From Fimbriimonas sp. (GTDB taxonomy: Bacteria > Armatimonadota > Fimbriimonadia > Fimbriimonadales > Fimbriimonadaceae), in assembly GCA_031292555.1 (NCBI GenBank), contig JARLGV010000140.1, forward strand, positions 1 to 43,606: DNA of 43,606 bases, written 5' to 3'. Shown here in pieces: positions 18,764 to 39,842 of this stretch. Position 1 is the first letter of the stretch, and each line of letters begins with the position of its first letter. The notes under the pieces were generated by a model that was not told the origin of the DNA, did not search any database, and saw only the letters and a list, made by a program, of their open reading frames with translations. The position numbers were made by a program, and so were the translations under genes.

Positions 18764-20235
18764 GGCGTAACGCAGACGTACTTCTCATTAATTCTCCGAG
18801 GGATCTCTTCCAGCCGTCCAATAGGGCTTCCCAAGATCGTCGCATGCCCCTTGGTTTGATGTACATCGCGGCCTTTCTCAAGCAAGCGGGAAAGACCGTT
18901 CGCATGGTGGACGCCGAAGCACTCCGTTTGGGCGCAATGGCGATAATCGATGTAGCTGTTGAGTATCAACCACGTATTGTCGGTCTGAACTGCCATACAC
19001 TTAACAGGCATGTCGTTTATGATCTTGTTCGCTTACTGCAGTTTGCCTGTCCAGGGTCGAAGATCGTGCTCGGCGGCCCCCACCCGTCACTAGCTCCGGG
19101 ATCAGTATTTCGCGAGTGCTCGGCTGTGAACATCATAGTTATCGGCGAAGGCGAGCAAACCATGCTTGAATTGTGCAATAGATCAGAAGATCTTGAGGGT
19201 GTGCGCGGCATTGCGTTCCGGTCAGGTGAAGGCGTTCGTTTTACACCACCCAGACCACGAATCACCGCGCTGGACGACCTTCCTTTCCCTGATCTTGCCG
19301 ATCTGCCCGTTCATGAATACCTGAGGTATTCAGATCCGGATCTGCCTGGTCTGTGGAACCGAGCCTATCTTAGTGCTACTAGGGGTTGCCGCTTTAGGTG
19401 TTCCTATTGCACCGAACACGCTTTTTGGTCTGGCGGTTCGTCGGTCAGAACTGCGCAAAGCGTAATTGACGAGATGCTCGCCTATCGCCAAGCATATGGT
19501 GTCGACCGATTTTACTTCTATGACGATACATTCACAGATTGGCCTCACCTATTTGAGTTCTGCCAATCTGCCGGGGAACTCGGTTTCACGTGGAGTTGCT
19601 CAACGCGCATCGAACAAATGAGTCCCGACACAATACGCAAGATGGCCGAAGGCGGATGCCGTGAGGTTGCCTTTGGGCTTGAATCAGGCTCTAAGCTCTC
19701 ACTCCAGTCCGTTCACAAGAACTGGCAAGGGGCACGTGGTCACAGTGTTGCGTCAGAGGTCATTAAGGCCTGTAATGAGCAAAGAATAGCACCAAGGGCC
19801 CATTTCATTCTCGGGTTTCCGTGGGAAGCGGCTACGGACATTACGGCAACGGTGAAGCTTGCCCTTACCCTTCGCAAGTCAGGCTTGAGAGATGCGAATT
19901 TTTTCGTCTTCAAAGTGTATCCAGGCACTGAGATTTCGAAACAGATAGTCAGTGACCCAGATCAGACTATCGTAAGTGTCACCGAACACTCCGAAGAAGC
20001 ATGGTACGACGCCTGGAGCGTGTACGATTGGTTTCGTGCTTCCTCTCCTCAGGTTGCGGCCAAGCTAAAGCGCTTTAACGATATTCCCCTGATCTCACCC
20101 AACCCGCGTTTCGAGAGTATTGAGCTACGACTGATCGTGCGGAAGGCTTACGAGCTTTTTTTTGCACCCACGATCCTTGCTGAAGCTCTAGTTCACGATG
20201 CCCTCTGGGCGAGTTCTCGCCCAAACTCGAAGTAG
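18760..20235 (+). CDS. Cobalamin-binding-type radical SAM protein
   Basis: 491-aa enzyme with an N-terminal B12-binding-like Rossmann domain (about 1-150: VLLINSPRD, LGLMYIAAFLKQAGKTVRMVD, IVGLNCHTLN, IVLGGPHPS, VIGEGEQTMLEL) and a radical SAM barrel. The barrel has the cluster motif C-x3-C-x2-C (C210, C214, C217 in RGCRFRCSYC), and FYFYDDTFTDW and FGLESGS later in the fold. The layout follows the BchE/MiaB-like P-methylase type. Members methylate unreactive carbons or rearrange rings. The classic DxHxxG cobalamin lower-ligand motif is not visible, as in many BchE-type enzymes. It overlaps the STAND gene by 4 nt and is surely co-translated with it. No peptide or other substrate gene is next to it. 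A hairpin GGGCGA/TCGCCC (20207-20222) lies at the very end of the gene. Confidence 0.9.
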   Translation: MRRNADVLLINSPRDLFQPSNRASQDRRMPLGLMYIAAFLKQAGKTVRMVDAEALRLGAMAIIDVAVEYQPRIVGLNCHTLNRHVVYDLVRLLQFACPGSKIVLGGPHPSLAPGSVFRECSAVNIIVIGEGEQTMLELCNRSEDLEGVRGIAFRSGEGVRFTPPRPRITALDDLPFPDLADLPVHEYLRYSDPDLPGLWNRAYLSATRGCRFRCSYCTEHAFWSGGSSVRTAQSVIDEMLAYRQAYGVDRFYFYDDTFTDWPHLFEFCQSAGELGFTWSCSTRIEQMSPDTIRKMAEGGCREVAFGLESGSKLSLQSVHKNWQGARGHSVASEVIKACNEQRIAPRAHFILGFPWEAATDITATVKLALTLRKSGLRDANFFVFKVYPGTEISKQIVSDPDQTIVSVTEHSEEAWYDAWSVYDWFRASSPQVAAKLKRFNDIPLISPNPRFESIELRLIVRKAYELFFAPTILAEALVHDALWASSRPNSK

Positions 20236-24638: not shown

Positions 24639-25012
24639 GCTTTCCTCGCTTCCTCGATCATTCGGCGCATATCGTCCAGGTCCGCATCGGTTAGGTCAAC
24701 TTCCTTGTCATTCAGCAGCGTGGCCAACACTCCGCTCACCGAACCGCCAAAGAACGTCTTGACGAGGCGATTCGCCTCGACGCGAGCCACCGCATCGCGC
24801 TCCCTGGTCGGGCGGTACACGAATCGGACTCCCTCCTCCTCATGGTTGAGAAACCCCTTCGCCTCGAGGGTTCGGAGGTAGGAACGGATCGCCGAATTCG
24901 AGATACTGCCCGGCAGCGCCTGTTCGAGGTCAGTTGCCACGATCGAACCACGTTCGTAGGCGAGGTCCATGATCTGGTGCTCTCGCTTGCTCAGATTTCC
25001 CGTGAGTTTCAT
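24635..25012 (-). CDS. BlaI/MecI-family transcriptional repressor
   Basis: 125-aa winged-helix repressor, the standard length for BlaI/MecI/CopY. The N-terminal HTH reads LSKREHQIMDLAYERGSIVATDLEQAL and ISNSAIRSYLRTLEAKGFLNHEEEG, and the wing is VRFVYRPTRERD. The C-terminal part (VKTFFGGSVSGVLATLLNDKEVD) is the dimerisation region where M56 proteases cut. It is the first gene of the pair with the M56 protein, and the 4-nt overlap indicates coupled translation. Three dyads of GTTGGA/TCCAAC type lie from 4 nt upstream of its start codon, indicating autoregulation. The divergent desaturase gene could share this control. Confidence 0.95.
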   Translation of the reverse strand: MKLTGNLSKREHQIMDLAYERGSIVATDLEQALPGSISNSAIRSYLRTLEAKGFLNHEEEGVRFVYRPTRERDAVARVEANRLVKTFFGGSVSGVLATLLNDKEVDLTDADLDDMRRMIEEARKA

Positions 25013-25152: not shown

Positions 25153-26199
25153 ATGTCGAAGACTCAGGAAAAGCGCACCGTTGCGCCCAGACTGACCAAA
25201 CCTAGCCGACCCGTAGGGGCCCCGGTGCGGTGGTATCGACCGAAGCTGCCCAAGGACGTTTTGGCGGAGTTGAACCGCAAAAGTGACCTTAAAGGGATGG
25301 TGCAAACCCTCGGCTACCTACTAACGCTCGTCCTGACCGGATTGTTGTTTGTCATCGCTTGCCTACGGCATTCGTGGCTCGCGATTCCCGCTCTGTTTCT
25401 TCACGGAGCCTGCTGCGCGTTCTTGGTAAACGGATTCCACGAGTTGGTTCATGACTCTGTGTTCAAGACTCGCTGGCTCAATCGGTTCTTCCTTGTCATC
25501 TTCTCGTTTCTCGGATGGTACAACCACATCGCGTTTTGGGCGAGCCATTCGGAGCATCACCGCTTCACGCTTCATCCACCGGACGATCTGGAAGTCGTGC
25601 TTCCCCAACAGGTGACGCTCAAGTCGCTATTGACCTTTGGCATCGTCGACGTGAAGGGGCTTTTCTGGTTGATCCCGAGCACTCTGAAAGTCGCGTTCGG
25701 GTACTTGGACGGGGAATGGATGACATACCTGTTCACTCAGAAGAAGCCGGAGATGAGGCGATCGATGCACGAGTGGGCGGGGATCGTGCTGATCGGGCAC
25801 TTGTCGATCGGGGCGGTCTGCATCGGAGCCGGCTACTGGCCAATCGCCGTCGCAGTCAGTCTTGGACGGTCCTTCGGGCTTGGTATTCAGTTTCTCTGCA
25901 ATGCCACCCAGCATGTCGGGCTGACCGACGAGTATCCGGATTTCCGGTTGTGCTGCCGAACGATCACCCTGAACCCCGTGCTGCAGTTCCTGTACTGGCA
26001 CATGAACTACCACACCGAGCACCACATCTTCGCGGGAGTTCCTTGCTACAACCTCGGACGGCTGCACCGGCTCATTCGAGCGGAAATGCCCGAATGCACG
26101 CACGGCCTCGTCGCCACATGGCGACAAATCGGTTGGATACTCAAGCAACAGAAGGCAGACCCGAGCTACCAGTTCGTACCCAAGCTGCCGGTCTCCTAG
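25153..26199 (+). CDS. Membrane fatty acid desaturase
   Basis: 348-aa di-iron fatty acid desaturase-type protein. The three histidine boxes are HELVH (96-100), HSEHH (132-136) and HTEHH (287-291), with hydrophobic segments at about 53-70, 76-95, 110-125, and a later pair around 210-245. This set is the signature of the membrane desaturase/hydroxylase family, which introduces a double bond or hydroxyl into an acyl chain or related lipid using oxygen. The start ATG 25153 gives a basic N-terminus. It is divergent from the BlaI-type repressor and lies by its operator set, so repressor control is possible. Its stop shares CTAG with the convergent GH2 gene. Whether it acts on acyl-CoA, acyl lipid or carotenoid-like substrates is not visible. 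Confidence 0.92.
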   Translation: MSKTQEKRTVAPRLTKPSRPVGAPVRWYRPKLPKDVLAELNRKSDLKGMVQTLGYLLTLVLTGLLFVIACLRHSWLAIPALFLHGACCAFLVNGFHELVHDSVFKTRWLNRFFLVIFSFLGWYNHIAFWASHSEHHRFTLHPPDDLEVVLPQQVTLKSLLTFGIVDVKGLFWLIPSTLKVAFGYLDGEWMTYLFTQKKPEMRRSMHEWAGIVLIGHLSIGAVCIGAGYWPIAVAVSLGRSFGLGIQFLCNATQHVGLTDEYPDFRLCCRTITLNPVLQFLYWHMNYHTEHHIFAGVPCYNLGRLHRLIRAEMPECTHGLVATWRQIGWILKQQKADPSYQFVPKLPVS

Positions 26200-28562
26200 C
26201 GTCGAGCTACGCGCAGTTCGATCGTAGTGGGCGCCAGACCCTCCGACGCTACCTCGACTCGAATGACTCCGTTCTCACCAGTTGGTTGCACGATCGCCGT
26301 AAGGCCGCCACGCCATGCCCGATGAATGTGAGATCGAACGCTGGCGACATCGGTAGGATCGGCGGTACCTAACGCCGCAAGCCTGCCGGGTCCGTCGACG
26401 GTTACTTCGACCTTGTTGTCGGCGTGTGGAACCACGATTCCTTGCTTGTCGACGATCTCGATCTTGACGTAGCTCAAATCGTGCTCGCCCTCAGTGAGCA
26501 TCGGCCGGTCCGTCACGACCCGAATGGCGGATGGCGCGCCGGCTGTCCGCAACTCAAACCGACCGGTCGCCTCGCCCGACTCGCCTGTTACGATCAACTC
26601 ACCAGGCTCATAGGGAACCTGGAACACGGCCTGCCTCCGCTGTTCCTTGCCGCAAAGCTTCTCGCCCAGAACACGACCGTTTAGGGTGAGCTTGACCGAA
26701 TCGAACGAGGAATAGACGACAACATCCTTGATCGTCCCTTCTTCGTCCGGGTACGTCCAATGCGGCAGCACATTTGGCCATCCCCACTTGGGACGCCAAT
26801 CGGTGGTTTGGAGTCGGTCCAGCACCGTCAACGCATCAGGTTCCTGGCCGACCGCCGCATAAAGAACGCCAGGCTCCCAAAGCGCCTGCCGGTAGTAGGA
26901 CGGGGGCTTACGTTCGCCTACGATGTCCAGATCGCCACACTCGGCCAAGTGCCGAGGATACGCCTCGTTGACCGGCTCGGATCCATCGTATTTCACATAT
27001 CCGATTCCAGATTCACCGTAGTAGTCGAGAGCCGTCCACGTGTAGTCGCCGATCACCCAGGGGTGCGTCTCGACAAGATCCCAAATCTCGAAGATGTCCT
27101 TCGGGAAGCTCTCGGTGCCTAGAACGATACGATCGGGATGCCGGCTGTGGTCTGGCTCGTAATTCGCATGCTGGTAGTTGTATCCTGCGATGTCGAGGTG
27201 AAGGAAGCCAGGATCGCTGCTGGACTCCCAGTCAGTGAACTCAAAGCCGGGCCAAAACGAATGGCATACGCCCTGCGAAATCGGACGCGTCGGATCGGAT
27301 TGGAGCACCATGTTCCGAAGTCGAAGCGCGATCTCAGGCTTGTCGAAGCACTCGGGAATCTCGTTGCCAATCGACCACATGACGACGCTAGGGTGGTTTC
27401 GATCCCGACGAACGTGCAGCGTCAATACCGCTCTGCTCGTATGCTCAAAGCGCTTGGCGTATCCGTCCTCGGTCTTGGGGTGAGCCCACTCATCGAACGC
27501 CTCATCCATGACGAGCATGCCGAGGCGGTCGCAGGCGTCGAGGAACGCGGGAGAGGGCGCATTGTGCGACGTTCGAATCCCGTTGTATCCGGCGGCTTTG
27601 AGCAGTTCGACCCGGCGAGCTTCCGCCCGATCGATGGCGGCGGCACCCAAAAGACCGTTGTCATGGTGAACGCAGCCGCCCTTGATTTTTACGCTCTTGC
27701 CGTTGAGCTGAAGACCCATGACGGATGAGAGCCGAATATCGCGGACGCCGAACGTCACCGACTCAACATCCATTTGCTGTTCTCCGCATCGCACACGAAT
27801 AGAAGCGGTATACAGGTTTGGATTCTCGAGACTCCAAAGTTGAGGTCGATCAAGTGAGTCGTCGAACGCGATCACCGACTCGCCTCCGGGATCCAGTTGG
27901 AAGGGACGACTCACGTTAAGGACGGTTAGGCCCCACGGATCGCGTACTCGCAAGTAAACATCGCCAATCGCTTCCTCCTGAGATCCGTTCTCAACCTCTA
28001 CAGAGACAGCGATTTTAGCGTGTTCGTCCGTCACGTCGCATGTGCTAACGAACACGCCGTCCATTGGAATGAATACTTCGCCGGTCATCTTGAGCCAAAC
28101 GTGGCGAAATATGCCGGACCCGGTGTACCAGCGGGAATTCCACCCCTCGTTCCTCACGCGAACTGCCAGCACATTCTCCCGCTTTGGATGAAGGTGGGGC
28201 GTAAGGTCGAAACAAAACGGCGTGTATCCGTGAACGTGAGAGCCAAGATGGACGCCGTTTAGCCAGACGTCGGTTTCGCAATAGGCGCCTTCGAACCTGA
28301 CCTCGGCCCGTTCGACATCCGTCAAAAAGAACTGCTTACGATACCACCGGGTTCCACCCAATACGAACCCGGTCGCCCCTTTCCCGGGGCTCGAATCGGG
28401 ATCGAAGGGACCGGAGCGACGCGGGCAGTTCAGGTTGGTCGGAAGGTCATCCAGGCTCCAGTCGTGAGGTAGATCGACCGGGCTCCAGTTCGAGTCGTCA
28501 AACCGTTCCAGCGATGCATCGTCGGCTTCGCCAAACCGCCAACCTCGATCCCAAAGCTCCAT
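26196..28562 (-). CDS. Glycoside hydrolase family 2 (beta-galactosidase-like)
   Basis: 788-aa GH2 enzyme. Order: jellyroll sugar-binding domain (WDRGWRFGEADD, VDLPHDWSLDDLP, GTRWYRKQFFL, VWLNGVHLGSHVHGYTPF), immunoglobulin-like domain, then TIM barrel with RTSHNAPSPAFLDACDRLGM, acid/base E401 in WSIGNEIPE and nucleophile E484 in VLGTESFP. C-terminal beta domains follow (DUF4982-type with VVYSSFDSVKLTLNG, then a bacterial Ig-like part). No signal peptide is seen. An ATG at 28589 extends the frame by nine residues, but the ATG at 28562 has AGGGGGG nine nt upstream, so I prefer it. The GH2 family covers beta-galactosidase, beta-glucuronidase and beta-mannosidase; this layout is closest to the beta-galactosidase group. 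It probably works with the GH10 xylanase nearby on hemicellulose. Confidence 0.92.
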   Translation of the reverse strand: MELWDRGWRFGEADDASLERFDDSNWSPVDLPHDWSLDDLPTNLNCPRRSGPFDPDSSPGKGATGFVLGGTRWYRKQFFLTDVERAEVRFEGAYCETDVWLNGVHLGSHVHGYTPFCFDLTPHLHPKRENVLAVRVRNEGWNSRWYTGSGIFRHVWLKMTGEVFIPMDGVFVSTCDVTDEHAKIAVSVEVENGSQEEAIGDVYLRVRDPWGLTVLNVSRPFQLDPGGESVIAFDDSLDRPQLWSLENPNLYTASIRVRCGEQQMDVESVTFGVRDIRLSSVMGLQLNGKSVKIKGGCVHHDNGLLGAAAIDRAEARRVELLKAAGYNGIRTSHNAPSPAFLDACDRLGMLVMDEAFDEWAHPKTEDGYAKRFEHTSRAVLTLHVRRDRNHPSVVMWSIGNEIPECFDKPEIALRLRNMVLQSDPTRPISQGVCHSFWPGFEFTDWESSSDPGFLHLDIAGYNYQHANYEPDHSRHPDRIVLGTESFPKDIFEIWDLVETHPWVIGDYTWTALDYYGESGIGYVKYDGSEPVNEAYPRHLAECGDLDIVGERKPPSYYRQALWEPGVLYAAVGQEPDALTVLDRLQTTDWRPKWGWPNVLPHWTYPDEEGTIKDVVVYSSFDSVKLTLNGRVLGEKLCGKEQRRQAVFQVPYEPGELIVTGESGEATGRFELRTAGAPSAIRVVTDRPMLTEGEHDLSYVKIEIVDKQGIVVPHADNKVEVTVDGPGRLAALGTADPTDVASVRSHIHRAWRGGLTAIVQPTGENGVIRVEVASEGLAPTTIELRVARR

Positions 28563-28609
28563 TGTCCACTTCCCCCCTGTCGCATTCAAGCGACGTCCAT
28601 GGTTTGGAC

Positions 28610-28815: not shown

Positions 28816-29817
28816 CTACAATGTCCTTGAGGAGACGGCGATTCGCATGTATTCGTTTAGCAGGCTCAGATACAGGCCATAGTCGTCGAACGAAACTCCA
28901 GGCGGGGTCTGGTGGTCGACACTCGGAATAAACCGGGAGGAACGCATGACGGGCATCAGGCGCTCGAACTCTTGACGCATGGCGGACTCGCCAAGGTGCA
29001 TCACGGTCTTGTCGAAGCCTCCAATCATGACCCACTCCGGATGATTGGCTCGAATACGGTTGACGTCGACTCCAGCCATTCGCTCAAGCGGGAGAATTCC
29101 TTGCACTCCGACCGACTTGAACCATGGGATCAGCGGCTCAATGTCGCCATCGCTATCGATCAGGACGACGACGCCGTGCTCGCGCAGCCACGGCACCACT
29201 TGCTTATAATACGGCGCCATGAATTCGTCGAACAGCTCCTTCGAGATCATCGGGCCGTGGTTGTACGACATATCCTCGGCGAACGTCATGAAGTCGGGCA
29301 TGAAGTCCATGCCCATGAATTCGAGGCATCTTAGTGAGTAGTCGGCTTGATCCTGGTTGATCCTGTGCATCAACTCGGGCTGATCGTAGAACGCGTAGAG
29401 ATGCGGTTCGATCCCGAGCAGGACGCGTGGCCACCAGAAGAACCCGTTCAGGGTGACCCACATCACGCAATCCCCGCGATCTTGCTTCTCCCTGATCCGA
29501 CGCCATGTATTCCGGTCGTACTGGGGAGGCCAAGGATAGAGGCGATCCCGGATGGCTTCATAGTCAGCGGTGTCTTCGATCCACCAATCAGGCGACTTCA
29601 TCGGCGTTCCGAATTCGGGTTGGGGAAACCATAATTGGTAGTCCATGTCTAGCCCGAAATGCTCCTTGATCCCAGACCAGTCAAGCGTGTCCGACAGACC
29701 TTCGCCTCGCCATCGCTCAATAGTCAGGTGCCACCACGTCGCCCACTCCATCACGGGCAGCCGATCATCTGGCATCCCTCCTGCAAAAACCGCTCTGAAT
29801 CGTTCTCGTACTGTCAT
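28816..29817 (-). CDS. Uroporphyrinogen decarboxylase-like (URO-D superfamily) protein
   Basis: 333-aa TIM-barrel protein of the URO-D superfamily. It shows the family N-terminus (TVRERFRAVFAGGMPDDRLPVMEW), a central MDFMPDFMTFAEDMSYNHGP, the VVLIDSDGDIEPLIPWFKSVG strand-helix and the C-terminal VDHQTPPGVSFDDYGLYLSLL. True HemE enzymes have a different N-terminal signature and use a CxR-PWTLMRQAGR motif, which is not present, so haem synthesis is unlikely. Members in Armatimonadota and Planctomycetes of this type sit among sugar-degradation genes and resemble corrinoid or methyl-transfer enzymes; their reaction is unknown. It is divergent from the GH10 xylanase gene. Confidence 0.85.
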   Translation of the reverse strand: MTVRERFRAVFAGGMPDDRLPVMEWATWWHLTIERWRGEGLSDTLDWSGIKEHFGLDMDYQLWFPQPEFGTPMKSPDWWIEDTADYEAIRDRLYPWPPQYDRNTWRRIREKQDRGDCVMWVTLNGFFWWPRVLLGIEPHLYAFYDQPELMHRINQDQADYSLRCLEFMGMDFMPDFMTFAEDMSYNHGPMISKELFDEFMAPYYKQVVPWLREHGVVVLIDSDGDIEPLIPWFKSVGVQGILPLERMAGVDVNRIRANHPEWVMIGGFDKTVMHLGESAMRQEFERLMPVMRSSRFIPSVDHQTPPGVSFDDYGLYLSLLNEYMRIAVSSRTL

Positions 29818-30015
29818 ATCGCCGCCTCATTGTTCGTCTTTGTCATTCGCGGAATCCTCGCCAGGCAGAAAGAGGAAGTGTCGAATATCACCGTACAACC
29901 CGAATCTGCCGTCGATTGCCCAACCGAGAGGCGACCTCGTGCAAAGCTGAACCGATATTCAGACGAAATGCTCGCCGAATGGATCGTGCCTCTTGACAGT
30001 GGGGTAACACGGGCC

Positions 30016-31788
30016 ATGTGGCAACGAAGCTGGGCGATTCTTAGCCTCCTCTTGCTGGTGTTTTCGGGCATCGCGGCACCGGCTCGCGCTCAAGACAGCG
30101 GTTACTGGTTGAGTCGCCCTGACGATACGGCGGCAAGCGTCTCAAGAATCACGGCTCAGCCGAGGCCCGGGTATCTGGTCTATGGATTCCGGGTGGACGT
30201 AAGGCGGGCCGTCACGCCGTTCTACATGATTCAACTGACCTCCCCGATTCCGACGGCGGTAGAGGTGGGTGACAAACTCCGCGTACGCTTCTGGGCCAGG
30301 TCGCTCTCGACGGAGGGGCATCCGGCGAGGGTCTCGCTCGAAGACTCCCAGCCGCCATTTCAGGCGATCGCCGACGACACGCCGACATTCGGACGCGAAT
30401 GGAAGCGATATGAGATCCTTGGGACGAGTCGCCGCGCCTTTCCCGCCAAAGCCACGAGCATCCACTTTCAATTGGGCAGGCAGGCGGGAATCGTCGAATT
30501 GGCAGAGATCTCGATTATGAACATGGGGATCGACCCGGAGGTCGAAAAAGCACGCAAGGCATTGGCTCCCGACGCGGTAGCTTCCCGAATTCGCAAATAC
30601 CGGATGAGCGACCTACAGATACAGGTGATCGACTCGCAGGGCCATCCAGTCTCGTCGGCCAAGGTGTCGGTCGACCAGGTGCGGCACGAGTTCCTGTTCG
30701 GCTGCGACATTTTCGGGCTCGACCTGCACGACGCCGCAAACCCCATTCAGATGCAGTACCGGAAGCGCTTTGCCGACCTGTTCAACTATGCGACGCTTCC
30801 CTTCTACTGGGGCGCCTTCGAGCCGCAGCCAGGGAAACCGGAGTTCGACCGGCTGCTCGGAATGGCGGCTTGGTGCCAGGAACATGGTATTGCCTGCAAG
30901 GGACACCCTCTGGTTTGGCACCAGGTATATCCCAGTTGGGCTCCCAAGGACGATTCGGTTCTGCCAACACTTAAGCGCCGGGTAGAGGATATCGTTCAGA
31001 GGAGCGGGACGAGGATCCAGTACTTCGATGTCTTCAATGAGATTCACGACGCTCCGTCTACCGACACGGGAGTCGGATTCTGGGTGAAGAAGATCGGTGC
31101 TCCTAACGCGCTGGCTACCGCTCTCGACTGGGCACGTAAAGCCGATCCGAAAACGTCGCACACGTTCCTATACAACGACTACCGCACAACGTCCGCCACG
31201 GTGGACCTGCTATCCGCGCTTCAGAAGATGGGCTCACTACCCGATGCGATCGGAATACAGTCTCACATGCATGGAGGCAACTGGCCCATGGATGACGTGT
31301 GGACGACTATCGAGCGATTCACCCAATTCAAACGGCCCATTCACTTCACGGAAACAACGGTGTTGAGCGGGCCAAAACGGAACGACGTCGACCAGGATCA
31401 CCCACCTGCGGATTGGCTAACAACCCCCGAAATGGAACGGGTTCAGGCAGATTACGTCGAGCAGTTCTACACCACGCTCTTCAGCCATCCGGCTGTCCAC
31501 GCGATTACGTGGTGGGATCTCAGCGACCTCAACGCGTGGCAAGGGGCCCCGGCGGGACTGATTCGAAAGGACATGTCGCCGAAGCCTGCCTATGACCGGC
31601 TGATGGACCTGGTACACAACCGCTGGTGGACGAAGGCCACTGGATCAACGGACGCGAAGGGTTTATTTCACAGCCGCGTCTTTCGCGGCATTCAACGCGT
31701 CTCGATCAGCCTGAAGGACGGTCGGAAAGTGACGCGAAACGTCACGGTGGCGGGTGATGCCGGAACAAAGATGCTCGTGAGAATCTAG
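30016..31788 (+). CDS. Glycoside hydrolase family 10 endo-xylanase-like, secreted
   Basis: About 590-aa exported GH10 enzyme, which cuts beta-1,4-xylan backbones. The signal peptide is MWQRSWAILSLLLLVFSG followed by IAAPARA. Residues about 30-170 form a carbohydrate-binding-like beta domain (RPGYLVYGFRVDVRRAV, TSIHFQLGRQAGIVELAEIS). The catalytic barrel has KGHPLVWHQVYPSWAP, the acid/base E342 in YFDVFNEIHDA and the nucleophile E446 in PIHFTETTV, with WWDLSDLNAWQGAPAGL near the end. A short C-terminal beta region follows. The frame is open back to 29659, but the upstream part overlaps the URO-D-like gene antisense. The start ATG 30016 is chosen for the signal peptide; ATG 29968 is also possible. 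It probably feeds xylo-oligosaccharides to the GH2 and GH127-type enzymes. Confidence 0.92.
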   Translation: MWQRSWAILSLLLLVFSGIAAPARAQDSGYWLSRPDDTAASVSRITAQPRPGYLVYGFRVDVRRAVTPFYMIQLTSPIPTAVEVGDKLRVRFWARSLSTEGHPARVSLEDSQPPFQAIADDTPTFGREWKRYEILGTSRRAFPAKATSIHFQLGRQAGIVELAEISIMNMGIDPEVEKARKALAPDAVASRIRKYRMSDLQIQVIDSQGHPVSSAKVSVDQVRHEFLFGCDIFGLDLHDAANPIQMQYRKRFADLFNYATLPFYWGAFEPQPGKPEFDRLLGMAAWCQEHGIACKGHPLVWHQVYPSWAPKDDSVLPTLKRRVEDIVQRSGTRIQYFDVFNEIHDAPSTDTGVGFWVKKIGAPNALATALDWARKADPKTSHTFLYNDYRTTSATVDLLSALQKMGSLPDAIGIQSHMHGGNWPMDDVWTTIERFTQFKRPIHFTETTVLSGPKRNDVDQDHPPADWLTTPEMERVQADYVEQFYTTLFSHPAVHAITWWDLSDLNAWQGAPAGLIRKDMSPKPAYDRLMDLVHNRWWTKATGSTDAKGLFHSRVFRGIQRVSISLKDGRKVTRNVTVAGDAGTKMLVRI

Positions 31789-31848: not shown

Positions 31849-33588
31849 GTGTCGAAAAGCTACGATTGCGATGTTGCGATCATAGGTGGAGGGCCGGCCG
31901 GCGCCACCGCTGGTTCGCTGATCAAGAAGTACTCTCCCGAAACCAAGGTTGTCATCTTGGAACGTGAGTCGTTCCCACGCGAACACGTGGGCGAAAGCCA
32001 ATTGCCGGCGATCTCCTCGATTCTTAACGAGTTGGGCGTCTGGGATAAGGTCGAAGCGGCGAACTTCCCGATTAAGGTCGGCGCGACCTATCGTTGGGGC
32101 AGCACCAAAGGATATTGGAAATTCGATTTTCTGCTGCGGCCGTTCGTCGACGAACCTAGACCGGCCAAATTCAGTCACCAACGCGAGTCAACCGCATTTC
32201 AGGTCGACCGGTCCGTATACGACAAGATTCTGCTCGATCACGCCCGGGAAATGGGATGCGAAGTCTATGAACAGGTGCGCGTCGACCAGATCGACGTGGA
32301 GGGTGACCAAGTCCTTGGCCTGAACATCTCTTGTGAAGGCAAGTCGTCGCAACCAGCATCTGCTCTCCATGGAGTCACTCGCGTGCAAGCACGCCACTAT
32401 GTCGACGGCTCAGGAGTTTCGGCCATGCTCCGCAAGAAGCTCGAAATCGGCGTCCACTCGCCGACGAACCTCCGGAACATCGCCATCTGGGATTATTGGC
32501 AGAATGCCGAGTGGGCGGAGTCGGTGGGAACTGGTGGTACACGCATTCAGGTGCTGAGTCTGAGCTGGGGTTGGTTATGGTTCATCCCGATTTCGCCCAC
32601 CCGTACCTCTATTGGCTTGGTCCTTCCTGCATCCTATTACAAAGAGCGGAACCTCAAGCCAGAGGAGATCTACCTGGAGGCAATCGCCGCCGATCCACGC
32701 GTATCCAAACTGATCACCAAGGCATCCCGCGAAAAGCTCATCCAAACGACGAATGATTGGAGCTACATCTCCGACCGGATTGTCGGCGAGAATTGGTTTC
32801 TAGCGGGCGACGCCTGTGGATTCGCGGACCCGATTCTGTCGGCAGGTATGACTCTCGCCCACACTAGCGGTCGACGGGTTGCCTACTCAATCTTGGAGAT
32901 CGATCGCGGCGATTTGGACGCAGCTTGGGTGAGAAGCGAATACGAACAGATCCACCGGGACCAGATTCTGCATCACATTCGCTTCGCCGACTTTTGGTAC
33001 TCGTCGAACGGCTGCTTCACCGATCTCAAGGAGAACTGCTCAGAAATTGCCAAGCATGCCGGTCTCGAACTGTCCGCTCAAGAGGCATTCCGCTGGCTAA
33101 GCACCGGCGGTTTTGCGGGAGAGGATCAGTCGTTCGCGATGAAAGGCACTTATCGGTTCAGCTCGATCAAAGTCTTTACCGAAGCGCTGACCGATGGCAG
33201 TATCGATTGGACGATCACCAAGAAAAACGAATACCGTTTGAACCTCATCGGTGCTCAGTTGACGGAGATCTCGTTCATGCGGGACGGCCGGATCGAGCCG
33301 ACCAAATGCTATCGACGCGGACAGAATGTGCTTCCGTTGAGTGGAATGTATCGGATCGTGCATGCTGCGATTTCCCGGGAACCGGATGCCATGCGTGCAT
33401 TCGCCTTGATACGCCAAGCGTTGATCGACAGCAAGTATCCGGGAATCGACGAGGGGATGTTTGCCGCTTACGAAGTAATTGAATCGATGATCGTAGACGG
33501 CTGGATTACGGCCAAGGTCAACAAGAAGCGTCCCCTGTTGGGATTCAGCAGCGACACACAGAAATCGACCACTGAGACTGCCGTCTAG
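31849..33588 (+). CDS. Flavin-dependent halogenase-like FAD monooxygenase (copy 1)
   Basis: 579-aa FAD enzyme of the halogenase/monooxygenase group. The dinucleotide-binding motif is VAIIGGGPAGATAGSL (12-20 core GGGPAGAT). The FPIKVGATYRWG segment holds K76, which aligns with the lysine that carries the haloamine in flavin-dependent halogenases. The motif WLWFIP (GWLWFIPISP) matches WxWxIP of that family, and AGDACGFADPILSAG is the FAD ribityl site. These residues together favour a halogenase, although related non-halogenating monooxygenases exist. The start is GTG 31849. A paralogue on the opposite strand follows and shares its stop in CTAG. No flavin reductase is in the window. The substrate is unknown. 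Confidence 0.8.
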   Translation: MSKSYDCDVAIIGGGPAGATAGSLIKKYSPETKVVILERESFPREHVGESQLPAISSILNELGVWDKVEAANFPIKVGATYRWGSTKGYWKFDFLLRPFVDEPRPAKFSHQRESTAFQVDRSVYDKILLDHAREMGCEVYEQVRVDQIDVEGDQVLGLNISCEGKSSQPASALHGVTRVQARHYVDGSGVSAMLRKKLEIGVHSPTNLRNIAIWDYWQNAEWAESVGTGGTRIQVLSLSWGWLWFIPISPTRTSIGLVLPASYYKERNLKPEEIYLEAIAADPRVSKLITKASREKLIQTTNDWSYISDRIVGENWFLAGDACGFADPILSAGMTLAHTSGRRVAYSILEIDRGDLDAAWVRSEYEQIHRDQILHHIRFADFWYSSNGCFTDLKENCSEIAKHAGLELSAQEAFRWLSTGGFAGEDQSFAMKGTYRFSSIKVFTEALTDGSIDWTITKKNEYRLNLIGAQLTEISFMRDGRIEPTKCYRRGQNVLPLSGMYRIVHAAISREPDAMRAFALIRQALIDSKYPGIDEGMFAAYEVIESMIVDGWITAKVNKKRPLLGFSSDTQKSTTETAV

Positions 33589-35315
33589 CCCTCGACCTGT
33601 TCCAACCTGGCCACATCGCGGTTCGCATGCACCAATGCTTCGAAACTGAAGTTCACGGGCGGGAACGGCACGGCTCCCGGCTCGACTCGGCCCTTGATCC
33701 ACCCGTCGGAGACCAGCGCCTCCAACGTCTTGAGCATCTCGAACTGCGTCTTGCCCGGGTCGCCGACCGATTCGCCGTTCATCGTCATATCCGGAACCGG
33801 GATTCGGCAAAGCTCATCGTAGGAACGCTCTATCTTCATGAGTTGAGTGAGAAAGGCCGGCAACCCGACCATCGGAAGGACCTTGCCGTTCCGCCGGTAC
33901 ATACGACGACGGGTGATACGTCCGGCGGAAGTCTCGGCCATCCAGTCCTTCTCCGCCCCGTCCAGATCCGTGACGAAATGCGTCTTGCCCACGACATCGT
34001 ACGGCACTTCCCCGCCGGTGAACGAGCCCACGATCTCCTTGGCGATCAACAATCCGCATCCGCCCAGGTTCGTACCGCTCGTGTGCTCGATGAACCCGCC
34101 TTGACCGATCCATCGCCAAGCCTCTTCCGGAGAGAGGCTCAGGCCGGCATCGCCGGCAATCTCTTGCGCATAGTCCTTCAGGTCCGAGAAGACGCCGTTG
34201 GCGGTGTACCAGAAATCGGCAAACCGTACATGCTGCCGGATCTGGGAGCGATGGTTCGCCGAATAGTTCTCCCGAAGCCATGCGGCATCCATCTCCTTGC
34301 GATCCAGTTCGAGAATCGTATACGCCACTAATCGAGCGCCCGCATGAGTGAGCGCCATTCCGGCGGCTAGAATCGGATCGGCGAACCCCGCGCTTTCTCC
34401 CGCCAAGAACCAGTTCTGTCCCGCCAGACGCTCCGCAATAAAGCTCCAATCCTTGGTGGTCGTGAACCGGCCCTCGCACTCGGCGTTTCGGATCAAGCGC
34501 GAGACAATCGGATCCGAAGCCAAAGCCTCGCGATAGAGTTCCTCGGGACGCTTGCCGGACTCCTTATAGTAGCTCACCGGCACGACCAAGCCGATCGAGG
34601 TCCGATCGGGACCAAGCGGAATGAACCAGATCCACCCATACGAGAGCGATAGCACCTGCACGCGCGTGCCGCCGACCCCGATCGACACCGCCCATTCCGC
34701 GTTTCTCCAGTAATCCCACACGGCCATGTTCTGCAGCGACGTTGGGATCTCAACTGGAATCTCCATGGTTCGGCGAATAATGCCCGGATGACCACTGGCG
34801 TCGACGTAGTACCGGGCTTGCACTCTCGAACCGTCATCCAAGACGAGACCATTGACGCGATCGCCATTTCGCTCAACGACCCGGACGGTGGTTTCCTCTC
34901 GGACCTCGCATCCAAGTTCCCGCGCATGATCAAGCAAAATCTTGTCGTAAACGGCCCGATCGACCTGAAACGCGGTCTGCGTTCGCTGACCGACAAAACG
35001 AGACGGCCGCTCCACGGGATGGAACACACCCCCCGCTACGAATTCGAAGTCCCAGAGGTCGTCGGTGCGTCCCCACCGGTAGGTCGCCCCAATCTTGATG
35101 GGAAACCCGGCCGCTTCGACCTTGTCCCAGACGCCCATCTCGGCGAGGATATGAGATATTGACGGAAGTTGACTCTCCCCGACATGGTCGCGTGGAAAGC
35201 TCTCTCGCTCCAAGACCACTACCCTCAATCTCGGGTTGTACTTCAAGAGTAAGGAGGCAACAGTCGATCCGGCAGGACCGCCACCTACGATGGCTACGTC
35301 GTATTCGTTCTTCAT
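33585..35315 (-). CDS. Flavin-dependent halogenase-like FAD monooxygenase (copy 2)
   Basis: 576-aa paralogue of the plus-strand gene at 31849, very similar along most of its length: ERESFPRDHVGESQLPSISH versus ERESFPREHVGESQLPAISS, and YGWIWFIPLGP versus WGWLWFIPISP. It keeps the FAD motif VGGGPAGST, the halogenase-type lysine K74 in FPIKIGATYRWG, WIWFIP and AGESAGFADPILAAG (GE for GD at the FAD site). The C-terminal part (about 380-470) differs more from copy 1, which suggests a different substrate. The longest frame begins with GTG 35318 directly before ATG 35315; I take the ATG. The gene converges on copy 1 and both stop codons lie in one CTAG. Confidence 0.8.
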   Translation of the reverse strand: MKNEYDVAIVGGGPAGSTVASLLLKYNPRLRVVVLERESFPRDHVGESQLPSISHILAEMGVWDKVEAAGFPIKIGATYRWGRTDDLWDFEFVAGGVFHPVERPSRFVGQRTQTAFQVDRAVYDKILLDHARELGCEVREETTVRVVERNGDRVNGLVLDDGSRVQARYYVDASGHPGIIRRTMEIPVEIPTSLQNMAVWDYWRNAEWAVSIGVGGTRVQVLSLSYGWIWFIPLGPDRTSIGLVVPVSYYKESGKRPEELYREALASDPIVSRLIRNAECEGRFTTTKDWSFIAERLAGQNWFLAGESAGFADPILAAGMALTHAGARLVAYTILELDRKEMDAAWLRENYSANHRSQIRQHVRFADFWYTANGVFSDLKDYAQEIAGDAGLSLSPEEAWRWIGQGGFIEHTSGTNLGGCGLLIAKEIVGSFTGGEVPYDVVGKTHFVTDLDGAEKDWMAETSAGRITRRRMYRRNGKVLPMVGLPAFLTQLMKIERSYDELCRIPVPDMTMNGESVGDPGKTQFEMLKTLEALVSDGWIKGRVEPGAVPFPPVNFSFEALVHANRDVARLEQVEG

Positions 35316-35482
35316 CACAGGATCGTGTGGTACGGGAAGTAGGGTGCTCGAACATTATCGCAGGATTGGAGCTAAAATGGTAGCCCATGTCGAAGGCCCG
35401 GCACACTCCGGCGTCTTGTACTGCGTAACCTCTTGAGCAAGGCGTTTCGCCCTACAACCTACGGCTTTGGCGAGAAACTAGT

Positions 35483-37264
35483 ATGAATACCGACCCCTCC
35501 GGCAGTGCTGCCGACCATCCAGATGCCCTGTTCGCACAAAGCATGGCCGCGTTTCAGAGTAAGGACTTCGATCGCGCGGTCGAATTTGCCGATCGACTCT
35601 TGGAGATCTCACATGGGGCAGGCCCGGCCTACGTTTGGGGCTTACGCCTACGATTGGAGGCGGGTCGGTGGCAGGATGCGATCGATTTTGGACTTAGGGG
35701 ACAAGATGCTGCGCCTGGATTATGTGGCCTGATCGGCCATGCCTATGAGGCACTAAGCGACATCGGCCACGCGCAGTTGCAGTTCGAAAGGGCCTGTCGC
35801 GAGCAGCCGGAGAATCCGGCGTGGTGGATTCACAACGCATCGGCGCTATCGCGTCTCTACCGGGACTTCGAGTCCATGGAATCACTCGAACGTGGCATTG
35901 CGCTTTCGCCCAATCCAGACCCAAACGTATTAATGATCCTCGGTTCGCTTCAGCTCACATTTGGGGCGGCATCCAAGGCATTTGAGACCGCCAAGCGCGC
36001 ATTGAAAGGCAATCCAAACGTCGACGGCGGGAGATCGCTGGCGGCTCGGAGCCTGATGGCGTTAGGACGTTATGACGACGCTGAGTCGGAATGGGCGGCG
36101 GCAGCACTTTGGGCGCCGCGCGACCTAGGAATTCCTCTGCAGAGGGCAATCACCAAACTACGCCACGGCATGATTGACGTAGGCTCGAAAGAGTTGGAGT
36201 CGCTGGTCCAAAAGGCGCCAAAATTCGTCCCTGCACTCGTACAAATCGCTACTGCCAAGAGATTCACGGCAGATGATCGGCCCATCGTGGCGCAGCTTGA
36301 GCATGTCCTAGGCGAACCTTCGAACACGAACGAAGAGCGGATTGCGCTTCGCTATGCTTTGGGAAAGGCTTACGACAACCTAAAGGACTACGAGCGTGCG
36401 ATCGAGCACTTTGACGAAGGAAACCGCCTTCAGTACTTGCCGATCGAGTCGTCGGGCGGATTTGACCGGATGGGATACACCGCCAACATGAGTTTGCGTG
36501 CCGATGTATACGATCGAGAGACCGTGGACGAACTCGCGAGATCGGGCGATCCCGACCCATCCCCGATTTTTGTGCTTGGAGTCATCCGTTCCGGGACAAC
36601 CCTTGCGGAGCAGATACTGTCGGCCCATCCCGACGTCTCGGGAGCGGGAGAACTCGATTTCTGGATCAACGCCGACCTACGGCTTATGGACTATTCGGCT
36701 CGTAAGCTTCAGGAGGATGAGCTTCGCAAGGCGGCCAAGGTGTATGCAAGACTCCTCAACGGTTTTGCGAAAGACGGTGCGACCCGAGTCGTCGACAAGC
36801 AGCCGGGAAACCTGATATTGGCGGGAGCCTTGCACATCGCCTTTCCTAACGCGCGGATCATCCACATGCAACGCCACCCAATCGATACCGCGATCTCCAT
36901 TTGGACGACACATATTCGGACGTCCACTCGTTTCGTACACCATAAGGGGAACATCGTTCATGCGTTCCGGGAGCATGAACGGCTTATGCGGCACTGGAGC
37001 GAGGTGATCCCGTCCGACCGGTTTATGACCGTTCAGTACGAAGCGCTTGTGGACGACCGAGAACGCGTGACTCGACAAATGCTCGAATTCTGCGGGCTCG
37101 ATTGGAACGACGTCTGTCTTTCGCCGGAGAAAAACCAAAAGCAAGTAATCACGCCAAGCCTATGGCAAGTACGGCAACCGGTCTACCGAACTTCGATCGG
37201 CAGATGGAGGCATTACGAGCCCTGGCTTGGCGAATTCCGCGAGATGGCGCTAACGGATAGCTGA
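35483..37264 (+). CDS. TPR-domain sulfotransferase
   Basis: 593-aa protein. An N-terminal half of TPR-like helix pairs (SMAAFQSKDFDRAVEFADRL, ALGKAYDNLKDYERAIEHFD) spans about 10-340. The C-terminal sulfotransferase domain begins with the PAPS-binding P-loop-like VLGVIRSGTTLAEQIL (364-379, with R369-S-G-T-T) and has the 3'-phosphate segment HMQRHPIDTAIS (R464-H-P). This matches the bacterial TPR-sulfotransferase family, related to tyrosylprotein sulfotransferases, which moves sulfate from PAPS to a peptide, sugar or lipid. No signal peptide is visible. It starts at ATG 35483, 167 nt after the divergent halogenase-like gene, and converges with the small lipoprotein gene. Substrate unknown. Confidence 0.9.
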   Translation: MNTDPSGSAADHPDALFAQSMAAFQSKDFDRAVEFADRLLEISHGAGPAYVWGLRLRLEAGRWQDAIDFGLRGQDAAPGLCGLIGHAYEALSDIGHAQLQFERACREQPENPAWWIHNASALSRLYRDFESMESLERGIALSPNPDPNVLMILGSLQLTFGAASKAFETAKRALKGNPNVDGGRSLAARSLMALGRYDDAESEWAAAALWAPRDLGIPLQRAITKLRHGMIDVGSKELESLVQKAPKFVPALVQIATAKRFTADDRPIVAQLEHVLGEPSNTNEERIALRYALGKAYDNLKDYERAIEHFDEGNRLQYLPIESSGGFDRMGYTANMSLRADVYDRETVDELARSGDPDPSPIFVLGVIRSGTTLAEQILSAHPDVSGAGELDFWINADLRLMDYSARKLQEDELRKAAKVYARLLNGFAKDGATRVVDKQPGNLILAGALHIAFPNARIIHMQRHPIDTAISIWTTHIRTSTRFVHHKGNIVHAFREHERLMRHWSEVIPSDRFMTVQYEALVDDRERVTRQMLEFCGLDWNDVCLSPEKNQKQVITPSLWQVRQPVYRTSIGRWRHYEPWLGEFREMALTDS

Positions 37265-37280
37265 TCGATTCAGAATGCCG

Positions 37281-37565
37281 CTACTGCCCAAGGGGTGGTT
37301 TGCCCGCCAACGCACGGGCTTTATTTACCTCGTCGACTTTGTCAGGGTGAGCCTTGGCCCACGCGATCTCATCCTGCTTGGCCTTGTCCTGATTCGAGGC
37401 AAGCTCTTGGAACCCCTTCTGCAGTTGCTCCTTGGTAGGCGGCGGCATCTTCTTGGCTGCCTTCTGCTGTTCGAGGATATCGTTCGGGTCCTTGCCGCAA
37501 CCGATTCCGGCAACAACGGAAAGGGCAATCAACGCCGCGAGGGCGCTTAGCGATAGTTGTTTCAT
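37281..37565 (-). CDS. Small predicted lipoprotein
   Basis: 94-aa protein starting at ATG 37565. It begins MKQLSLSALAALIALSVV followed by AGIGCGKDPND: a basic start, hydrophobic core and a lipobox-like GIGC, so it probably is exported and lipid-anchored at Cys 24, although Gly at -3 is not standard. The mature part is short, very polar and helix-forming (LEQQKAAKKMPPPTKEQLQK). An open frame further upstream, to 37658, overlaps the pseudopilin gene and gives no better start. It lies downstream of the pseudopilin on the same strand, separated by a strong hairpin, so it may have reduced or separate expression. Function unknown. Confidence 0.75.
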   Translation of the reverse strand: MKQLSLSALAALIALSVVAGIGCGKDPNDILEQQKAAKKMPPPTKEQLQKGFQELASNQDKAKQDEIAWAKAHPDKVDEVNKARALAGKPPLGQ

Positions 37566-37586
37566 GATTCGTTCCACTCGGCGACC

Positions 37587-37623
37587 GACCGCTCCTGCCC
37601 GAACACCGGGTGCAGGAGCGGTC
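37587..37623 (-). terminator. 12-bp hairpin between pseudopilin and lipoprotein genes
   Basis: Arms GACCGCTCCTGC (37587-37598) and GCAGGAGCGGTC (37612-37623) pair perfectly with a 13-nt loop. It sits 13 nt after the pseudopilin stop and 22 nt before the lipoprotein start. No T-run follows. It would end or thin out transcription, or stabilise the pseudopilin mRNA, so that the abundant first gene is made in excess over the second. Confidence 0.55.
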
Positions 37624-37636
37624 GAAGAGACCGTCG

Positions 37637-38563
37637 TTACGGACGCAGTGCGTCCCACTTGTTGAGCCCCGGCTGATGATCCGGATTCGGATCGGTCGAA
37701 GCAATGTTGAGGAACTTGGCGTGCCCGTCGGTGAACGAGAAGTTGGATCCTCCCGGTTTCACCTGGCCGACCGCTCCGGTGGGGCCTTGCGGCGCCGGCA
37801 CACTTGGCGAGATCAATCCGTTGGGAATCTCATTTCCGCCACAATCGTTGATGTTGCTGTTACTTCCATCCGTTGTCGGAACGCCTTCAAAGAAGCCGCC
37901 GCACTGGAACTGGGTGGCGTTCGTCCCACCCCATTTCAAGGCATCTCCGTTGAACTTCGTGGCGATCGCGATCGTATCGCCAGGGTGAGTCACCTGGGTC
38001 GTAGATAGGGCGGCGACGTTGAGTTCGCCTCCACCATTTTGCCCGTATATCTGGGCAAACGGCGCCGATATACCACGCAGCGTACAGTCCTGGGCATTTG
38101 TAAACGCCGGCTTTTCACACCGTCCCTGCCAGGAATCTGGGGCGACGTTAATGAAGTTGGCTGCGGCCGCCGCGTTTGGCGCCGTGAACGAGTTCAGACC
38201 GTACGAAACGGCGACGCCTTCCCAAGATGGGTATTCAACGACCGAGTTGGAGTCCAAGGGACTTCGGAAAAGCGCCAGCGACTTGCTGTAAGGCTGAAGC
38301 GTGAGGGTCCAACCCAACGATGGGCTGCCCCAAGATGGTGCGCCGGACCAATTGTCGGGAATCGCGTAGCAGTACATGTCGTCGTTATCGTTCGTGTACA
38401 ACTGCATGGCAGTGCCGATCTGCTTGAGGTTCGAGAGGTCGGCGGTCGCCTTGGCAGCCTGTTTGGCTTGGGCGAATACGGGGAAGAGGATTGCGGCGAG
38501 GATCGCGATGATCGCGATTACTACGAGCAATTCGATGAGAGTAAATGCTTTCTTAGGACGCAT
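37637..38563 (-). CDS. Pseudopilin-like protein with prepilin motif (copy 2)
   Basis: 308-aa protein of the same DUF1559-like family as the gene at 10664. It starts [20 protein letters not shown] at ATG 38563, with a basic leader, cleavage after KKA and Glu at mature position 5, and a helix continuing to about residue 30. The shared block [20 protein letters not shown] and TNDNDDMYC is nearly the same as in copy 1, and the C-terminal [12 protein letters not shown] carries the family signature. The middle (about 80-260) is a different, Asn/Gly-rich globular region with several Cys. The upstream 250 nt is AT-rich in part and probably holds the promoter. Confidence 0.93.
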
Positions 38564-38813: not shown

Positions 38814-39842
38814 CTAGATCGAGCCCAACGGCGCGGTCGAGTGTCGTTCGACGAGATAAACATCAAAAAGCTGCTCTTCTACTTCAAGGCTTGAGTTCTC
38901 GACGAGTTCAAGCAGCCGGGTTGCCGCCGTCGCTCCGATCAGCCGGAGCGGATGGTGAACGGTAGTTAAGGGCGGATCCATGCGAGCGCTGCGCCCAAGG
39001 TCGTCGAAACCAATGACCGAGAGGTCCTCCGGCACGCGGACTCCCTGTCGCTTCGCAACTCGAAGCAACGCCTCCGCAACAGAGTCGTGGGCACAGAACA
39101 CTGCCGATAGTCCCGTCTCCCGCCGACGGTCGAGCAGGGTGCGCGCCGAAGCCGCGCTCCCGTCCTGATTGTAGAAACCTTCTACAATCAGCGACTCGTC
39201 GACTTCAATGCCGGCATCGGCCATTTCGGATCGAAAGCCGGCAAGACGCTCGGGGCTGCTCGTGCTCCTGTTGTCGGCGGTGATCATTCCGATCTTCCGA
39301 TGACCGAGTTCAATAAGCCTGCGGGTTGCCAATCGGCCACCGAGCACGTTGTCGCAGTCGACCGTCGACACCGGAATCCCCCATGCTCGGGTGCCTAATA
39401 GCACGAGATTCTTGTTCTGTTTCGCTAGATCGAGAAGAAAGGTGGAGTTAGCGGGAGGCGCTAGAAAGAGGAAGCCGTCGCAACGTCCGTCGCAAAACGT
39501 CGGTACGTTCTGCTCAACCTCGGTCCAACTCATTCCGGTGAAGAGCATCAGAACCTGTTTGTGCTCTGAAGCGATTCTCAATACGCCGCTGAGCACCTCG
39601 GCGAAGTACTCATTTTCGAACGGGTCAATGCCCTCGTGGGGAAAGACAACACCAAAAGTGGCGGTGCGCGCCCTTCGCAGGCTGCGAGCAGCTGCGCTCG
39701 GCTTGTAGCCGAATTCGTCGATCACCCTCTGGACCTTCTCGCGAGTCGCAGGCAATACTGGCCGCGGACCGTCGTTCAAAACGTACGAAACGGTTGCCGT
39801 CGAAACCCCACTAGCCTTAGCAATGTCCTTCAGTGTCACCAT
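38814..39842 (-). CDS. LacI-family transcriptional regulator
   Basis: 342-aa regulator of the LacI/GalR family. The N-terminal HTH is VTLKDIAKASGVSTATVSYV and the hinge helix follows (FGYKPSAAARSLRRARTATFG). The ligand-binding periplasmic-protein-like domain has GVVFPHE, PVSTVDCDNVLGGRLATRRL, IGMITADNRSTSSPERL and VIGFDDLGRSARMDPPLTTV. The length is usual. A dyad of 16 nt lies 12 nt before the start codon, indicating autoregulation. The gene holds an 11-bp perfect inverted repeat inside the coding region. It is probably the sugar-responsive repressor for carbohydrate genes in this area; the ligand is unknown. Confidence 0.95.
   Translation of the reverse strand: MVTLKDIAKASGVSTATVSYVLNDGPRPVLPATREKVQRVIDEFGYKPSAAARSLRRARTATFGVVFPHEGIDPFENEYFAEVLSGVLRIASEHKQVLMLFTGMSWTEVEQNVPTFCDGRCDGFLFLAPPANSTFLLDLAKQNKNLVLLGTRAWGIPVSTVDCDNVLGGRLATRRLIELGHRKIGMITADNRSTSSPERLAGFRSEMADAGIEVDESLIVEGFYNQDGSAASARTLLDRRRETGLSAVFCAHDSVAEALLRVAKRQGVRVPEDLSVIGFDDLGRSARMDPPLTTVHHPLRLIGATAATRLLELVENSSLEVEEQLFDVYLVERHSTAPLGSI
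39166..39190. repeat. 11-bp perfect inverted repeat inside the LacI gene
   Basis: TGATTGTAGAA and TTCTACAATCA flank a 3-nt centre (ACC). The site codes for LIVEGFYNQ in the ligand domain. Such a perfect dyad in a coding region is unusual and its inner half TTCTACAATC resembles the TCTACAATC next to the operator-like site at 10642. It may be a secondary operator or a hairpin; chance is possible. Confidence 0.5.

Follow-up and report, generated by a model that had tools for sequence, protein, structure and literature searches.

A convergent pair of halogenase-like flavoenzymes from a lineage-expanded family in carbohydrate-use loci of Fimbriimonas

To our knowledge, nearly all flavin-dependent halogenases described come from pathways for antibiotics or pigments, in which they are present in one or two copies. 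Two halogenase-like genes that face each other among carbohydrate-use genes of a Fimbriimonas sp. genome raise the question of what such enzymes act on. The two genes, named here FDH-A and FDH-B (from flavin-dependent halogenase, FDH), are located in a 43,606-nucleotide stretch of DNA, referred to as the window, which corresponds to positions 1 to 43,606 of contig JARLGV010000140.1 from assembly GCA_031292555.1. The overall best explanation, to which we assign a probability of about 0.4, is that FDH-A and FDH-B belong to an expanded set of CmlS/PltA-class halogenases, the tails of which select peptide or protein targets.

The open reading frames (ORFs) of FDH-A (31849–33588, forward strand) and FDH-B (33585–35318, reverse strand) are both intact, start with GTG, and converge tail to tail. 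FDH-A is 579 residues long and contains K76, WLWFIP at residues 242–247, and LAGDACGFADPIL; the 577-residue-long FDH-B contains K75, WIWFIP, and LAGESAGFADPIL. An alternative ATG start located one codon into FDH-B moves its boundary to 35315, the position given in an earlier interpretation made without database searches, which is called here the sequence-only reading. A CTAG palindrome (33585–33588), read directly from the DNA, is common to the TAG stops of the two genes. The proteins are identical at 279 of 553 aligned positions (50%; 540 bits in BLASTP), and the identity is 61% (235/386) up to residue 400 and 22% (39/178) beyond it. The uneven conservation is a family-wide property, because 600 sampled pairs of 113 family members share on average 57.7% of residues in the N-terminal part versus 29.0% in the C-terminal part. 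The ORFs, alignment, and profile matches thus confirm the sequence-only reading in its description of two intact facing flavin-enzyme paralogues with the halogenase-type lysine and WxWxIP motif, which diverge mainly in their C-terminal halves; the resemblance is far greater than chance would give.

The two proteins are almost certainly halogenase-type flavoenzymes by fold and motif. The Pfam Trp_halogenase profile matches the two ORFs with E values of 1.6e-25 and 8.6e-39, well above the cut-off, and the best NCBIfam model for both is CmlS. The nearest solved sequences to FDH-A are halogenases: FasV (8zop; 5.5e-53), CmlS (3.2e-47), and PltA (3.4e-46), followed by Mpy16, ChlB4, and CndH. FasV is also the best match of FDH-B (1.6e-54). 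In a phmmer alignment counted by hand, K76 of FDH-A, equivalent to FDH-B K75 when counted from the GTG start and K74 from the ATG start, falls opposite residue 91 of the CmlS chain as deposited; we take this residue to be the catalytic K71, assuming a 20-residue tag. Lysine is present in all 112 family sequences that reach this column. Residues W242, W244, and I246 of the WxWxIP motif are kept in 113 of 113 members and P247 in 107, and the columns of GGGPAG, the GxGxxG-type motif for flavin adenine dinucleotide (FAD) near the N-terminus, are conserved in 107–112 of the 113 rows. An invariant aspartate (D303/D290) aligns with the covalent-flavin aspartate of CmlS, presumably Asp277. The full-length structure model is poor, with a predicted local distance difference test score (pLDDT) of 61, and served for fold ranking only; the first seven rows of its VIA ranking are halogenases (Z 25.9–28.5), and CmlS is ranked first by Foldseek. 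The assignment to halogenase-type flavin enzymes is therefore upheld at four levels: motifs, the profile match, the solved sequences closest to the pair, and the fold. Because of this fold and these motifs, a halogenase is the likeliest enzyme, and FDH-A and FDH-B are somewhat more likely than not to halogenate.

An alternative is that the proteins, despite their halogenase motifs, act as flavin monooxygenases and hydroxylate their substrates, for example protein tryptophan or tyrosine, as QhpG and LodB do. QhpG and LodB belong to the same superfamily as the FDH proteins, and the QhpG study describes that enzyme as related in fold to CmlS and acting on peptidyl tryptophan (PMC7876137). The QhpG and LodB profiles match the family at 8e-22 to 1e-38, and the FAD-site GD is replaced by GE in FDH-B and in 73 of 113 members, which makes glutamate commoner than aspartate (40/113). 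In a search confined to the PF01613 flavin reductase family, no member was found in the window's genome, whereas the family is present in 13 of 14 control genomes. However, all 18 family proteins encoded by this genome score 99–133 bits with the QhpG equivalog model (NF049967), far under its cut-off of 240, and the QhpG score is roughly half that of CmlS. The LodB and GoxB profiles are likewise far below CmlS, and the LodB scores are also far under the cut-off. In addition, no LodA- or QhpC-type partner was found among the annotated neighbours, and the catalytic lysine is strictly kept. Hydroxylation is an unlikely explanation, although one to be taken seriously. The placement in a clade of proven non-halogenating monooxygenases, which the sequence-only reading had named as refuting its view, was not seen among the available rows of a tree of 39 of the 113 family sequences with characterised enzymes, which included Escherichia coli FixC as the only non-halogenase, with the QhpG and LodB sequences outside the tree. 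The family joined PltA, Mpy16, and ChlB4 with a Shimodaira–Hasegawa-like approximate likelihood ratio test support of 91, in a part of the tree where long branches meet.

The known systems closest to the family differ from it in architecture and context. CmlS (3i3l), the FADH2-dependent halogenase of chloramphenicol synthesis, has the same whole-length architecture of approximately 570 residues, the FAD fold, the lysine, and WxWxIP. However, the identity is about 25%, and CmlS belongs as a single gene to an antibiotic pathway, whereas the FDH family has 18 copies in the window's genome, many of them in sugar loci. PltA, Mpy16, and ChlB4 form the nearest characterised clade in the tree, across long branches, and have the same motifs; by contrast, they are approximately 450 residues long, without a comparable tail, and function in carrier-bound pathways. 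FasV is the best solved sequence match of both proteins, but it is 412 residues long, also without a comparable tail, and its position in the tree is not settled.

The genome containing the window (6.46 Mb, 140 contigs) encodes 18 family copies in 11 loci, in which copies within 10 kb were merged. A PF04820 search of the genome identified no further copies, as its 36 matches at E ≤ 1e-8 fall in the known 18, each of which is matched in two parts. Matches at E ≤ 0.001 were found in 38 of 101 genomes searched as relatives, 29 of them strong family members and nine weak, as counted from the best E value. Other family-bearing genomes of the genus contain from one to at least 14 copies; approximately 13 candidates were scored in the richest genomes, so that some copy numbers are minimum values. 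When the search was widened to the phylum, 34 of 291 genomes matched at 1e-60, all from the taxonomic family of the window's species or one other family of the same order. The 91 fetched loci contain 118 family ORFs, of which five were excluded because of length or unknown residues, leaving the 113 that were aligned. In two loci (L085 and L107) no FDH was called; the caller takes the longest ORF and, where DNA is GC-rich, tends to choose spurious antisense ones. One scan of viral contigs revealed no viral relatives, and no account of this halogenase-like expansion was found in the open-access literature searched.

The sequence-only reading had attributed the pair to duplication by inversion, which does not agree with the phylogeny. 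In the tree of 113 members, FDH-A groups with copies at C124 (locus L012) and FDH-B with C72 (locus L011) and others, in separate and well-supported clades. Each of the two has its own orthologue in the related genome G005 (80% identity for FDH-A and 77% for FDH-B), where the genes are also convergent neighbours. A local inverted duplication is rejected on the basis of the tree together with the separate orthologues, and FDH-A and FDH-B are, as judged from their phylogeny, two old paralogues that were brought or kept together. Since G005 keeps the whole six-gene order of LacI-family regulator, pseudopilin, small protein, sulfotransferase, FDH-B, and FDH-A, the arrangement predates the split of the two species. 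Facing genes are not the rule: among 19 close FDH pairs in the family, 15 are tandem, three convergent, and one divergent.

The residues beyond approximately position 400 are the most variable part of the family. They include a winged-helix-like domain in FDH-B (33684–33983, reverse strand, residues ~446–545), which is composed of strands, three helices, and a last strand in a model that is suggestive only. The counterpart in FDH-A (33226–33519, forward strand, residues ~460–557) was placed by alignment and has approximate bounds. AlphaFold prediction of the tail alone from eight sequences gave a mean pLDDT of 61, with a core of ~74–85 formed by three or four strands, three helices, and the last strand. 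When the Foldseek candidates were ranked by VIA (23 rows), the first seven and the ninth, ThcOx, were enzymes of ribosomally synthesized and post-translationally modified peptides (RiPPs). NisB, TbtB, MadB, and two lasso-peptide B1 proteins were within the first seven, PqqD was ranked 15th, and the RiPP proteins spanned Z 3.9–6.9. RiPP recognition elements, as in NisB, TbtB, lasso B1, ThcOx, and PqqD, provide the best VIA matches of the FDH tail; we know of no such element that is part of a CmlS/PltA-class halogenase. The ribosomal protein-modifying MINA53 and NO66 were also among the matches, as were protein methyltransferases. The chance that the tail recognises the substrate through a winged helix is estimated to be about even.

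Among the genes next to the pair, those for a pilin and a small lipoprotein encode candidate binding partners of the tail domain. Adjoining FDH-A is a GH10 glycosidase gene (29659–31788, forward strand), and a GH2 gene (26196–28589) adds to the carbohydrate context. Beyond FDH-B, the window encodes a 593-residue protein with TPR and Sulfotransfer_3 domains (35483–37264, forward strand) and a small putative lipoprotein (37281–37658, reverse strand) with a lipobox-like VAGIGC after an internal methionine. The lipoprotein gene overlaps the end of a gene for a pseudopilin-type protein (37637–38563, reverse strand), which has an N_methyl prepilin motif and a C-terminal H-X9-DG motif. A LacI-family regulator (38814–39842, reverse strand) was identified by profile matches. 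Within 5 kb of the 118 family ORFs, the recurrent neighbours are pseudopilins (70), LacI regulators (53), another FDH (48), and TPR-sulfotransferases (35). Counted by locus, a pilin is present in 54 of the 89 in which an FDH was called, a LacI regulator in 39, and a sulfotransferase in 19. In the window's genome, sulfotransferases are within 5 kb of 6 of the 11 FDH loci (6.5% expected, P = 2.7e-5), pilins near seven (19.5%, P = 0.0017), and LacI regulators near five (9.6%, P = 0.0022). These P values assume uniform placement and ignore contig ends and the general clustering of carbohydrate genes, and the lists on which they are based retain 47 of 49 LacI and 99 of 121 pilin matches. Together, the genes for the LacI regulator, pseudopilin, and lipoprotein may form a module that is standard in such sugar loci.

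The sulfotransferase has a RSGTT motif for binding 3′-phosphoadenosine-5′-phosphosulfate (PAPS), and a motif of the RSGTT type is kept in 25 of 27 members of its cluster. Its best solved match is protein-tyrosine sulfotransferase 2 (TPST2; 9e-8) over residues 361–577, so that both PAPS-binding motif and TPST similarity are present. Adenosine-5′-phosphosulfate kinase is encoded once in the genome. The orthologue in G005 is 66% identical, and in a genome of another genus (G046) the single FDH is ~80 bp from a convergent match, one of three sulfotransferases of that genome. The FDH family is also present in each of the 12 genomes in which a sulfotransferase matches at 1e-40, which is weak evidence since 11 are from one genus.

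Glycosidases surround the FDH loci of several genomes (GH2, 3, 10, 13, 16, 29, 35, 78, 94, and 127). They bring in the alternative that the enzymes halogenate small aromatics encountered in plant or algal polymers, such as ferulate, lignin-like, or polyphenol decorations, for detoxification or signalling. GH10, GH2, GH3, GH16, GH29, GH35, GH127, and alpha-amylase-type genes around the loci fit this explanation. Furthermore, the fungal halogenase RadH, which acts on free phenols, shares the fold, and sulfotransferases can also sulfate phenols. However, the annotated neighbour clusters show no recurrent feruloyl esterase or aromatic-degradation gene, and among the matches listed the sulfotransferase resembles protein-tyrosine enzymes more closely than those that act on small molecules. 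Small aromatics are improbable substrates, but not remote ones.

In a Pfam scan of 52 of the 159 neighbour proteins in the window's genome, the first 25 of 84 matched families, which were those listed, included no natural-product synthase or flavin reductase, as the sequence-only reading had stated for the vicinity of the pair. The scan also bears on carrier-tethered halogenation, in which the tail would serve as the docking site for a separately supplied acyl or peptidyl carrier protein, as in the CmlS and PltA pathways. CmlS shares the C-terminal domain region, and the close relatives PltA and Mpy16 use carrier-bound substrates. However, the families listed for the 52 scanned neighbours included no carrier, adenylation, or synthase family, and 18 dispersed copies are unlike pathway genes, which makes tethering to a carrier very unlikely.

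Because the neighbours are carbohydrate-use genes, a pseudopilin, a lipoprotein, and a TPST-like enzyme rather than a synthase, a peptide or protein is the most likely target. The multiplicity of the enzymes, their uneven conservation, the likeness of the tail to peptide-binding domains, and the tyrosine-sulfotransferase-like partner make it likelier than a pathway intermediate. The assignment of the substrate of FDH-A and FDH-B to this class is tentative, falling short of even odds. In the favoured explanation, FDH-A and FDH-B, two of 18 paralogues in one genome, would represent a lineage-expanded branch of CmlS/PltA-class FADH2-dependent halogenases. By analogy with the class, their N-terminal 400 residues would bind FAD and produce HOCl or HOBr at the flavin, which would pass down a tunnel and be activated on the conserved lysine. 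The fast-changing PqqD/RiPP recognition element-like winged-helix tail would pick the substrate, so that each paralogue would serve its own target. Each locus would most likely encode the peptide or protein that is modified there, and an aromatic residue of this product might be halogenated, sulfated, or both.

Several results weigh against this explanation. The CmlS equivalog model (NF033113) scores FDH-A and FDH-B at 196.1 and 187.8 bits, far below its curated cut-off of 900, and the missing PF01613 reductase described above counts on the same side. Ten segments of the C-terminal domain gave no Pfam match (the best was a chance hit at 0.12), and a 60-sequence profile gave no sequence match in the PDB, so that the likeness to RiPP recognition elements is one of structure without sequence similarity. 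The best RiPP leader-binding matches, at Z 5.4–6.9, are below the safe value of 8; lower scores may reflect only a common arrangement, and the likeness is a lead. The tail also matches the C-terminal region of CmlS (Foldseek rank 1, E 0.029; VIA Z 4.0), and therefore the domain need not mean a peptide substrate. In mirror-distance comparisons excluding pairs with an FDH distance below 0.3, the FDH–LacI correlation was 0.280 versus 0.128 for FDH–pilin (37 loci), which does not single out the pilin, and that of FDH and sulfotransferase was −0.006 (19 loci). FDH-linked pilins of the window's genome contain 3.10% tryptophan and 5.10% tyrosine, similar to the 3.44% and 4.55% of 18 control pilins. 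The pilin, LacI regulator, and sulfotransferase are all absent from 32 of 89 loci, and the sulfotransferase from all 17 loci that were fetched from other genera; for these two reasons it is considered an optional partner. Family members from metagenome-assembled genomes of Planctomycetota (L050–L056) adjoin genes for a riboflavin kinase/FAD synthetase (RibF) and a DHH phosphoesterase, and none is in a sugar locus. The pseudopilin was rejected as a proven target, since neither the distance correlation nor the tryptophan and tyrosine content gave it special support.

The Planctomycetota copies, with ~50% identity, form one nested group in the family tree beside those of G068 and G070 (support 99), and this phylogenetic position suggests transfer between phyla. 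Proteobacterial halogenase-like genes are known from a context of TonB receptors and SapC. This context was looked for around the Planctomycetota copies, and RibF, DHH, a DNA methylase (L055 and L056), and PutA near the copies in L052, L055, and L056 were found instead.

The window's genome contains 34 TPR-sulfotransferases, 25 of which are not near any FDH, 49 LacI matches, and 121 pilin-type matches. It is full of pilin-type genes like that of F. ginsengisoli, for which the genome report gives 79 pseudopilin genes (PMC4072686). A small same-strand ORF at −40 to 200 bp accompanies 28 of 72 pilins, most with a lipobox-like start and several of them spurious. A small lipobox protein also follows the pseudopilin gene at many loci, among them L015 (8375–8578), L061 (4611–4937), and L071 (8178–8369). 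Elsewhere in the window, an NB-ARC/TPR STAND protein is encoded with a 4 bp overlap with a B12-binding radical SAM gene (16070–20235), a BlaI-like repressor is paired with an M56 BlaR1-like sensor (22170–25012), and a neutral ceramidase-like protein (9341–10600) is a partial match. No PADLOC match to an anti-phage system was found among five proteins, and the window contains no RNA or tRNA context.

It is conceivable, although rather improbable, that the genes form a dedicated protein-decoration system in which halogenases with a built-in winged helix for recognising leaders or proteins, multiplied to 18 in a genome, and TPST-like sulfotransferases mark aromatic residues of locus-specific secreted proteins. 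If so, each carbohydrate-use locus would have its own modified surface protein, a pseudopilin or small lipoprotein. In this case 18 copies of a halogenase-like gene are present in one genome, many in sugar loci and without synthases. A substrate class of proteins or peptides, read by the tail domain and with a tyrosine-sulfotransferase-like partner, is directly testable and, if true, would extend bacterial surface biology to the halogenation of proteins.

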